Below, piece by piece: positions 16,291-24,558 of a DNA stretch of 39,225 bases. Location of the stretch: the NCBI GenBank assembly GCA_944325245.1, contig CALUZM010000015.1:1-39225 (forward strand), written 5' to 3'. The translations under genes and the position numbers were made by a program. A model generated the notes under the pieces. That model ran no database searches, was not told the DNA's origin, and worked only from the letters and a program-made list of their open reading frames with translations. Source of the stretch: an uncultured Massilimicrobiota sp. (GTDB lineage Bacteria; Bacillota_I; Bacilli_A; Erysipelotrichales; Coprobacillaceae). Every line of letters begins with the position of its first letter. The stretch's first letter is position 1.

Positions 16291-18840
16291 TTACTTATAT
16301 TTTTTAACATCATCTAGTAAAAACTCATGATTTTGTGGTTGCTTTCTTTGAAATTCTTCAAAATGATGTGTGCTCACTGCTTCTACTTCCAAAGCCAATT
16401 CACGAGATGACATACGTCTCGCTCCTCTACCAATGACAATCGTCTGTTCTAAAGCATCTGAAGTTGCGACAATCACACGATAATCACTCGCCAGCTGGTG
16501 AGTTACTCTTTCAATATACATATCAGCTGTTTGAGCTTCTTTGGTATAAACAACATAGACATTATGATGTTTTTCTTGTGTACCCAAATTTTGTTTTACT
16601 TTATAGGCATCAAAAACAATAATCATCAAACATTGTTTATATCCCTGGTAATTACTTAAAATATCAATCAGTCGATCACGAGCTGCACCTAAATTCACCA
16701 TCGCCAAATCTTTAAGTTCTGACCATGAATGAATCACATTATAACCATCCACCAATAAACATTCTGGTTTGACAGTGACACTCATTGACTCTTCAAACTG
16801 TTGATTTTTGCGATAATAATCATCCGCTAAACGACGTTTGACTGGGCCATATGTTCTTTGAAAGATAGCATCCAACTCTTCATCTTCACTGTCATAAACC
16901 GGCAAAGTAGAGTCTGCTTGTTTTTGAGATGAAGACTGATAATGATAAGGTATATGCATATAATTTTCTACTTCATTCCATGGAACATAAAAGCCTGCTC
17001 CCTGACGGCAAAAAATAGAACCTGTCGGATTCAAAGTATCAGTTTCACTATCATATCGAATACGATCTATGACTTCCTGTGAATTATGACAAGGATAATA
17101 TCCTTTCATTGTACAAATCATCTGCCCTCTTCCTTTTGTTGCAGAAATGATATTTTGCTGATAATCCTGCAAACAGGCAGCTGGTCCAGAGCCATAGATA
17201 TCAACTTGAGCAGAATGATTTTCTATACTCACCTGAGCATGTCTTTTTTCTAAATCATATAAAACACGACTTAAAAATTCTTCAGGTATTTGAATATGAA
17301 TGTCATAATAAGGTTCCAGTAACTGTGATTCTCCTTTTTTAAGACCCTGACGAATGGCACGATAAGTCGCTTCACGGAAATCTCCACCTTCGGTATGTTT
17401 CTGATGAGCCTTTCCACTCAGGAGTATAATCTTCATATCTGTAATCGGTGATCCTGTCAAAACACCTAAATGTTCTTTTTCCTGAAAATGGGTCATAATT
17501 AAATTCTGATAATGCAAAGCCAGTTCATCATGAGAACACTGACTTTCAAAAACCAACCCACTTCCTGCAGGCATTGGTTCTAACAAGACATGAACTTCTG
17601 CATAATGGCGCAATGGTTCAAAGTGTCCAACACCTTCAACTGGTTTTGTAATCGTTTCTTTATAAAGTATTTCACCATGATCAAATGTCACATCTTCATG
17701 GAATCTATCATGAATGAGATTTTGCAGAATCTCAATTTGAATCGTTCCCATTAATTGAACATATATATCTTGTGTTTTAGCCACATAAGAGATATGTAAA
17801 GTAGGATCTTCCTGTGCCAGTAGCTGAAGATTTTTCAACATCTGATGACAATCTGTATGAGGAGACAAGACAACACGATAATTCATATAAGGAGTCATCA
17901 TAGGTTGAGAAACACTCTGATCTTTCAATGTGCTACCTGGCAAATAATTCTTTAATCCTTTTAATGCAACGACATCACCTGCGTTGGCTTGAGATAATAG
18001 TGTATATTTCTGTCCATCATATAAACGAATCTGATCAACTTTTTCGTCTTTCAAAACATCTTTAACATGCAATGTTCCACCCGTCAGTTTCACAAATGTC
18101 AATCGATTTCCCTGCTGATCATGATTGACCTTATAAACCAGACCATCAAGCTCCTGCTGGTAAGAAGGTTCTTGCACATATGTATCCAACATATCTAAAA
18201 AGGTACTCACCCCATCATTTTTTAAAGCTGAGCCAAAAAAGACAGGAAAGATTTTTCTTTGGAGAATACCTTTTTGAATATGCTCTATAGAAATACTTTG
18301 ATTTTCCATATATTCATCAAGCCATAAATCATCAACTAATGCTAGGTTTTCATAGAGCTGTGGCATTGGAATGGTAAAATCCAAACAAAATTCATGACAT
18401 TTTTGTGTCAATTCTTTAAGCAAATCTTCTTTGATATAATGTGTCTGATCCATCTTATTCATAAAAACAAATGTAGGAATATGATAATGTTCCAACAAAC
18501 GCCATATCGTTTCAGTATGGGACTGAACTCCATCCATCCCATTAACAACAATAATCGCATAATCCAAAATACGAAGTGTACGTTCCATCTCGGCAGAGAA
18601 GTCGGCATGACCTGGTGTATCAATCAATGTCAATTGTGTATTTTTCCAGTGAAAAAGAGCCTGTTTTGAAAAAATCGTAATACCACGATGACGTTCCTGC
18701 TTATCATAATCTAAAAAGGTATCTTGATGGTCCACTCTTCCTAATCGACGAATTTCTCCAGAAAGATAAAGCATACTTTCAGATAATGTTGTTTTTCCAG
18801 CATCAACATGTGCCAATATTCCAATAACGATTTTTTTCAT
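16291..18840 (-). CDS. EF-G/TetM-like translational GTPase fused to a Rae1-type NYN endoribonuclease domain
   Basis: The 849-aa protein has two parts. Residues 1-~620 form a complete ribosome-protection/EF-G-like GTPase: G1 AHVDAGKT (10-17), G2 RGITI (52-56), G3 DTPGH (74-78), G4 NKMD (128-131), then domains II-V ending with TetM-like 'EFLSRVLYDLEKRHAQ' and 'TKGRGQMICTMKGYYP'. After a ~70-residue polar linker, residues 695-849 are a YacP/Rae1 NYN domain: LLVDGYNVIHSW (Asp698), 'VFDAYKVK', 'TKEAQTADMYIE', 'VATSDALEQ', 'GARRMSSREL'. Rae1 cuts mRNA in the ribosomal A site, and TetM/EF-G proteins bind that site. A factor that recognises stalled ribosomes and cleaves their mRNA is the natural inference. 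A tetracycline-resistance role is not shown. ATG 18840 follows AAGGAGG. Confidence 0.9.
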   Translation of the reverse strand: MKKIVIGILAHVDAGKTTLSESMLYLSGEIRRLGRVDHQDTFLDYDKQERHRGITIFSKQALFHWKNTQLTLIDTPGHADFSAEMERTLRILDYAIIVVNGMDGVQSHTETIWRLLEHYHIPTFVFMNKMDQTHYIKEDLLKELTQKCHEFCLDFTIPMPQLYENLALVDDLWLDEYMENQSISIEHIQKGILQRKIFPVFFGSALKNDGVSTFLDMLDTYVQEPSYQQELDGLVYKVNHDQQGNRLTFVKLTGGTLHVKDVLKDEKVDQIRLYDGQKYTLLSQANAGDVVALKGLKNYLPGSTLKDQSVSQPMMTPYMNYRVVLSPHTDCHQMLKNLQLLAQEDPTLHISYVAKTQDIYVQLMGTIQIEILQNLIHDRFHEDVTFDHGEILYKETITKPVEGVGHFEPLRHYAEVHVLLEPMPAGSGLVFESQCSHDELALHYQNLIMTHFQEKEHLGVLTGSPITDMKIILLSGKAHQKHTEGGDFREATYRAIRQGLKKGESQLLEPYYDIHIQIPEEFLSRVLYDLEKRHAQVSIENHSAQVDIYGSGPAACLQDYQQNIISATKGRGQMICTMKGYYPCHNSQEVIDRIRYDSETDTLNPTGSIFCRQGAGFYVPWNEVENYMHIPYHYQSSSQKQADSTLPVYDSEDEELDAIFQRTYGPVKRRLADDYYRKNQQFEESMSVTVKPECLLVDGYNVIHSWSELKDLAMVNLGAARDRLIDILSNYQGYKQCLMIIVFDAYKVKQNLGTQEKHHNVYVVYTKEAQTADMYIERVTHQLASDYRVIVATSDALEQTIVIGRGARRMSSRELALEVEAVSTHHFEEFQRKQPQNHEFLLDDVKKYK

Positions 18841-18975
18841 TTCAAAGCCTCCTTCTCCTTTAAAGTTCTTGAAAAATTATTATACACTATTTTCATCATA
18901 ATATCATCTTTTTCATCTCAGTCTCTTCTTTTTTATCAAAATATGTTACAATAGAAAAGAAAGTGAGGACTGTTT

Positions 18976-19278
18976 ATGTTTGTAAGACTTCATGTCATTA
19001 TTTCAAGTGAAAATGAACAAGATGAAAAAACAATTAAAGATTTGCTGTATCAAATCAAACCAGAATTTTCTATTTCACCGGCTCGTGAATATGCCGGTTT
19101 AAAAGATCATAGTGAATTCTATGCCACTTGTGATATTGAGCCAAGTGAAGTTCAACCTTTGTTAGATTATCTCAATAATGATTGGGATGGTCCACAGGAT
19201 GACTGTATCTGTTATGGTTTTAATACAAAAATGTTTCATGAACTTGTTTATTACCTTGGATTTACTTTATTCGAGTAA
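18976..19278 (+). CDS. Conserved-looking small protein of unknown function
   Basis: This 100-aa acidic protein begins with 'MFVRLHVIISSENEQDEKTIKDLL' and ends with 'MFHELVYYLGFTLFE'. A beta-alpha-beta pattern is suggested, with no membrane segment or catalytic motif that I recognise. Expression signals are good: an extended -10 TGTTACAAT at 18944-18952, GTGAGGA before the ATG, and a strong terminator after the stop. It is a single-gene unit divergent from the GTPase-Rae1 fusion. I do not recognise the family. Confidence 0.75.
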   Translation: MFVRLHVIISSENEQDEKTIKDLLYQIKPEFSISPAREYAGLKDHSEFYATCDIEPSEVQPLLDYLNNDWDGPQDDCICYGFNTKMFHELVYYLGFTLFE

Positions 19279-24441: not shown

Positions 24442-24558
24442 GAAAACGCCACTGAAAAGTGACGTTCCATAAGAATTCTGGCAAGCGTGCCAACCTTGCA
24501 TTTCTTTTGACCTTACGGTGTGTAGCAGCACTTTCTCTACTTCAGAATATCTCTACAC
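24442..24558 (-). ncRNA. Stand-alone structured small RNA
   Basis: A consensus promoter (24561-24589) and a terminator (ACGTCACT-TTTC-AGTGGCGT then TTTTC, 24442-24465) bracket about 115 nt without an ORF. TGTGTAG pairs with CTACACA, enclosing about 26 nt, and TTGGCA/TGCCAG form a second hairpin. Class unknown to me. It is on the same strand as the replication genes of the element. Confidence 0.7.

Follow-up and report, generated by a model that had tools for sequence, protein, structure and literature searches.

The window, i.e., the whole 39,225-nucleotide stretch of DNA that was analysed, carries on its reverse strand (16291..18840) a complete open reading frame of 849 amino acids that starts with ATG and continues as a single unbroken frame with zero internal stops, encoding a translational GTPase fused to a Rae1-type nuclease (ORF, Pfam, PDB match and alignment). 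The genome in which it resides is 2.47 Mb in size. A candidate promoter (ATGATA-17-TATAAT, 18879..18907, same strand), recognized by consensus match only, lies ca. 39 bases upstream of the start codon. The sequence-only reading had placed an EF-G/TetM-like GTPase and a Rae1/YacP NYN domain in one polypeptide, and the continuous frame, with Pfam families matched in both halves, bears this out. In the GTPase half these are GTP_EFTU (residues 4-223, 1.5e-54), EF-G_D2 (231-305), EFG_III (317-386), EFG_IV (390-503, 6e-21) and EFG_C (506-587), i.e., a five-domain EF-G-like plan, all on the reverse strand: domain I or G domain (aa 1-230, 18151..18840), domains II and III (aa 231-388, 17677..18150; Pfam and AlphaFold), domain IV with its tip loops GHFEPLRHYAEVH and GKAHQKHTEGGDFR (aa 389-503, 17332..17676; alignment) and domain V (aa 504-590, 17071..17331; Pfam and AlphaFold). 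All five G motifs, described earlier as intact, could be located (AHVDAGKT 10-17, RGIT 52-55, DTPGH 74-78 with its catalytic-type histidine, NKMD 128-131 and GSA 203-205), and their residues are conserved in essentially all of the 70 fusions described below. Among PDB sequences, this half is matched best by TetM and TetO (residues 1-585) and by EF-G, and a fold search with the full AlphaFold model gave EF-G/EF-2-type structures in the 50 matches listed.

The C-terminal part (aa 695-843, 16312..16758, reverse strand) is a NYN_YacP, i.e., Rae1-type, nuclease domain. Homology to Rae1, on which the earlier reading hinged, proved strong: PF05991 is matched at 695-843 with E=1.3e-48 and 165.6 bits against a curated cut-off of 24.6, and Bacillus subtilis Rae1/YacP (PDB 5mq8/5mq9) aligns over residues 694-825 of the fusion (132 residues), pairing its D7, D53, D81 and D104 with D698, D744, D773 and D795. 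The aspartate 698 and the TKExxTAD and VATSD motifs named from the letters are each present as described (TKEAQTAD at 766-773, VATSD at 791-795), and the coordinates given in that reading are correct. The acidic residues are kept in all fusions and in 23 of 23 stand-alone Rae1 sequences, with D795 present in 69 of 70 fusions (one gap), and thus, judging from conserved residues in the two halves, both enzymes look active. The original proposal for NYN domains saw rRNA or tRNA as their targets (Anantharaman and Aravind 2006, as cited in PMC4342817), and a fusion that processes such RNAs rather than mRNA, with its GTPase serving ribosome assembly or recycling, could be imagined. We consider this quite improbable, given that the characterised member of the family, Rae1, cuts mRNA on ribosomes (PMC12320835) and that the fused domain has the same conserved acidic residues.

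The two halves are joined by a region for which a linker of about 70 residues had been suggested. A linker indeed exists, but it is not the whole of this region: when 70 fusions are aligned with 10 unfused relatives, nine Tet proteins and two EF-G, domain V ends near residue 590 and is followed by a conserved C-terminal extension of the GTPase family (aa 591-629, 16954..17070, reverse strand, GSIFCRQGAGFYVPWNEVENYMH; alignment and AlphaFold) with the consensus S-[IV]-F-C...G-x-G-x-x-V-x-W-x-E-V...M-H. Owing to the presence of this extension also in the close unfused proteins, which terminate just past it, the true linker is confined to ca. residues 630-692 (16765..16953, reverse strand). PHROG 6880 spans residues 1-629 of the fusion protein. 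AlphaFold predicts an ordered extension and a linker that is disordered for the most part (pLDDT <50), except for a low-confidence helix at 651-664; with a pTM of 0.59 for the full model, the relative placement of the domains is not fixed. Measured between the MH pair and residue 695, linkers of the fusion family have 62-120 aa. The linker contains a conserved motif (EDEELDAIFQRTYGPVKRR, aa 652-670, 16831..16887, reverse strand) of the form [ED][LIV]xx[IV][FYWIM]xx[TSE] plus a next residue from a set, which coincides with the predicted helix and is found in 57 of the 70 fusions, as opposed to 0.17 expected in shuffled linkers, a contrast inflated by sequence relatedness.

The term "ribosome-protection-type" used in the sequence-only reading holds as a label for the nearest relatives and goes no further, as the protein stays below the curated Tet cut-off and is devoid of the Tet-specific tip loop. 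The closest named family to the GTPase half is tet_protect (NCBI profile NF012153), which scores 402.3 bits, far under its curated cut-off of 775. In the alignment columns where Tet proteins have the domain-IV loop YYSPVSTP, the present protein has AHQKHTEGG and the fusions have AHxKHTEGG-type sequence; Tet loop residues occur in none of the 70 fusions and in all nine Tet rows, and both tip loops of domain IV are unlike those of Tet(M) throughout the fusions. In one column the fusion loop has a histidine where EF-G likewise has one. Domain IV is also the best-conserved domain among the fusions (mean identity 0.64; G domain 0.49, NYN 0.47). On the GTPase tree, fused and close unfused proteins make up a clade apart from known Tet proteins (SH-aLRT 98), and the few unfused rows that sit among the fused ones fit a secondary loss of the fusion. 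By these sequence measures, the GTPase half is a subfamily distinct from the drug-protection Tet proteins.

These observations bear directly on the possibility that the fusion is an antibiotic-resistance factor whose GTPase removes tetracycline or another A-site drug while the nuclease assists. Such a role would agree with tet_protect being the nearest named family, with the public annotation of one fused homologue as a TetM/W/O/S protein and with a passing suggestion in Atkinson 2015 (PMC4342817). We find it improbable, however, as besides the low score, the replaced YSPVSTP loop and the separate clade, four fused relatives carry a separate true Tet homologue (644-652 aa) as well, the locus shows genus-wide synteny and no mobile island, and an attenuator of the Tet(M) type would hardly fit into the short leader. 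Present evidence does not support the tetracycline-resistance label on the public fusion record. That record (NZ_CP143948.1) places a fused gene on an Agathobacter rectalis plasmid under the name TetM/W/O/S tetracycline resistance protein, which is probably misleading. On a Ligilactobacillus salivarius megaplasmid, an unfused GTPase of the same family adjoins rpsN and the gene of a putative metal homeostasis protein; insertion sequences lie nearby.

A phylogenetic survey, proposed along with the original reading, showed that the fusion recurs: among the loci retrieved there are 70 distinct fused proteins from Erysipelotrichales and Clostridia, the nearest named relatives being Massilimicrobiota (75-76% identity). 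Near full-length matches also occur in two unannotated human-gut records filed as phages (MT835563.1 and MT835514.1), which may be bacterial contigs. The only PF05991 match in the genome under study is the fused NYN domain itself. Within its own family, exactly one NYN_YacP match was present in 38 of 43 genomes, nearly all of them in fusion-length ORFs, and a short NYN ORF of 211 aa (G029) reaches the edge of its contig stretch. The samples from the class and the phylum gave no convincing case of a stand-alone Rae1, except the split gene of G334 (see below), and a further 24 genomes with fused proteins were without a second NYN_YacP copy. The Clostridia phylum was sampled evenly with 249 genomes, of which 15 had the fusion, 120 had Rae1 in shorter ORFs and none had both (Fisher p=4.5e-5, without correction for phylogeny). 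The unfused relative was found in four genomes of this sample (three close, one distant), and all four have a separate Rae1. Clostridium brassicae has an unfused GTPase and a stand-alone Rae1 of 171 aa. Two genomes (G063 and G082) have an unfused GTPase and no NYN_YacP among the matches listed. As far as gene content tells, the fusion thus takes the place of stand-alone rae1 in the cell. In a tree with 23 stand-alone Rae1 taken from the best-scoring Clostridia hits, all fused NYN domains group in a single clade (bootstrap 100, SH-aLRT 99), and the phylogeny suggests that they probably go back to a single fusion event.

Natural variants show which parts of the protein can be dispensed with. The full-length fusion is present in most members of one genus of the same order, in which two sister species (G093, 615 aa, and G645, 603 aa; proteins 63% identical) have proteins without domains IV, V and the extension, in which domains I-III of the GTPase are retained together with the linker motif and an intact NYN domain. 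Five other members of this genus (L157-L161) encode the NYN domain and linker motif alone as a free protein of ca. 201-205 aa; two of these five genomes are at least 94% complete. They have no Tet-like member of the GTPase family, only proteins with lengths and scores of the EF-G, EF-G2-like, LepA, TypA and EF-Tu types. The NYN-only genes adjoin what we take, from its sequence, to be a uracil-DNA glycosylase (ung) gene. Read from these sequences, the nuclease is the constant part in this genus and the GTPase the removable one, the form lacking domain IV shows that GTPase platform and nuclease stay joined even without the part of EF-G/Tet that enters the A site, and the NYN-only species suggest a nuclease that does not always need the GTPase. 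As to a stop or frameshift between the domains in relatives, which had been raised as a possibility, the fusions are otherwise continuous, but in G334 the halves lie in two frames, with the TGA stop of the GTPase ORF overlapping the GTG start of the NYN ORF (GTGA), through either a genuine split or perhaps an error of sequencing; another assembly (L053) has a frameshift inside the GTPase itself, near unresolved bases. In one MAG (L061) the NYN part is lost.

Close pairs have dN/dS values of ca. 0.03-0.2 for the NYN domain, domain IV and the G-III block; linkers go up to 0.35 and domain V to 0.29. Synonymous sites are nearly saturated in several of these pairs. Both halves are, by their dN/dS, under purifying selection, and the sequence comparisons support an old joining of GTPase and Rae1 that selection has preserved. 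The split gene of G334 and the MAG without the NYN part are what one would expect of a chance or decaying fusion, or of an assembly artefact, without function; set against 70 distinct intact fusions of probably single, old origin, with dN/dS well below 1 and catalytic residues kept, such an explanation has a negligible probability, and an assembly artefact or chance fusion was rejected on the number of distinct fusions.

The gene order around the fusion is the same in Massilimicrobiota, with synteny kept across the genus, and a mobile resistance cassette was rejected on this ground. The fusion gene stands by itself between one divergent and one convergent neighbour that are conserved within the genus only, and a conserved operon partner was likewise rejected. 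A divergent gene of 100 aa (18976-19278, forward strand) is 86-88% conserved in two Massilimicrobiota and has no Pfam match. An Rfam scan gave no regulatory leader match near the fusion gene, and a leader of this kind was discarded; elsewhere in the window (24473-24550, reverse strand) a skipping-rope RNA (RF02924) is matched with 51.8 bits, above the gathering score of 36.7. PADLOC returned no match for the fusion and defence genes were absent among the neighbours checked, and with this a phage-defence or toxin role was set aside.

We consider the fusion to be the Rae1 of this cell, mounted on a translational GTPase and acting at paused ribosomes by a GTP-coupled handover, a reading to which we give a probability of about one half. 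In B. subtilis, mRNA in the ribosomal A site is open to attack by Rae1 (PMC12320835), and the tips of domain IV of Tet/EF-G contact tetracycline or peptidyl-tRNA on the ribosome (PMC4342817). By analogy, the EF-G/Tet-like half would bind a stalled or paused ribosome, the presumed trigger, bringing the polypeptide to the factor-binding site while the A site is vacant or blocked. Domain IV would enter the A site and GTP would be hydrolysed; once domain IV leaves, the nuclease, tethered by its linker of ca. 65 residues with the conserved motif, would enter and, as in Rae1 of B. subtilis, cut the mRNA, and the ribosome would then be handed to tmRNA rescue. Since domain IV and the Rae1-like domain probably cannot share the A site at once, their action would have to be sequential. 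This handover builds on a single polypeptide with intact motifs of both enzymes, on the replacement of stand-alone rae1, on the probable single origin of the fusion, on purifying selection in both halves and on the presence of tmRNA in the genome. In favour of a GTPase-targeted Rae1 we also count the two sister species that kept G-II-III, linker and NYN despite the loss of domains IV and V. Against it count the competition for the A site that is to be expected between the nuclease and domain IV, the NYN-only species and the predicted structure with its loose domain placement. B. subtilis Rae1 works without a fused GTPase, which also speaks against the handover.

The main rival to sequential action is that the halves act independently, i.e., that two functions share one polypeptide and that the fusion merely sets their ratio or co-localises them. 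Separate genes in Clostridium brassicae and other genomes, the overlapping split frames of G334, the persistence of NYN-only genes in sister species and a long, variable and mainly disordered linker would all suit such an arrangement. We hold it to be rather unlikely, although the strongest of the alternatives, as the linker motif is retained in most fusions and also in the domain-IV-less and NYN-only forms and as fusion and stand-alone rae1 were not seen together in any genome. Beyond the handover itself, we tentatively propose that the fusion is a GTP-driven, self-delivering A-site mRNA endonuclease whose nuclease, in the natural variants, steps into the position that domains IV and V otherwise hold on this GTPase platform; this goes beyond what we would call likely. 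If true, a new class of factors for ribosome rescue or mRNA quality control would have to be recognised. Provided that the coupling is real, these gut bacteria would place an A-site mRNA nuclease via a dedicated GTPase and not by free diffusion, and this would give a handle on how Rae1 chooses the paused ribosomes that it cuts.

The fusion architecture has been in print since 2015: Atkinson 2015 (PMC4342817) describes, in two sentences, Tet proteins of ten Clostridiales species that acquired a YacP-like NYN RNase domain, with a guess at a resistance role. These Tet-YacP proteins resemble the present one in having a Tet/EF-G-like GTPase followed by a C-terminal YacP NYN domain in one ORF, whereas the present member comes from Massilimicrobiota, on the Erysipelotrichales side. 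An experimental study of the fusion was not found in the searchable literature; compared with the passages of the 2015 account on these proteins, what appears to be newly observed is the replacement of rae1, the single clade, the anatomy of extension and linker, the truncated variants and the divergence of the tip loops from Tet.

With Tet(M)/Tet(O) the fusion shares the five-domain EF-G-like plan, ca. 30-33% identity over residues 1-584 and all G motifs, but it is without the Tet domain-IV loop, has a C-terminal extension, falls in a separate clade and scores below the NCBI cut-off. Unfused members of the "translation factor GTPase family" (Ligilactobacillus salivarius, Clostridium brassicae, Paenibacillus) have ca. 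40-45% identity, similar tip loops and the same extension, yet they are 644-669 aa long, stop right past the extension and have no nuclease. RelE-type endonucleases have a fold unrelated to the NYN fusion, and no toxin-antitoxin context or PADLOC match was seen at the fusion locus; the likeness is that the fusion, too, would cut mRNA in the A site (PMC12320835 and established knowledge). Rae1/YacP of B. subtilis (5mq8, 5mq9) has the same NYN domain, all the conserved acidic residues and a single copy per genome; there it is a free protein of ca. 170-180 aa, whereas here it forms the C-terminal domain of an 849-aa GTPase.
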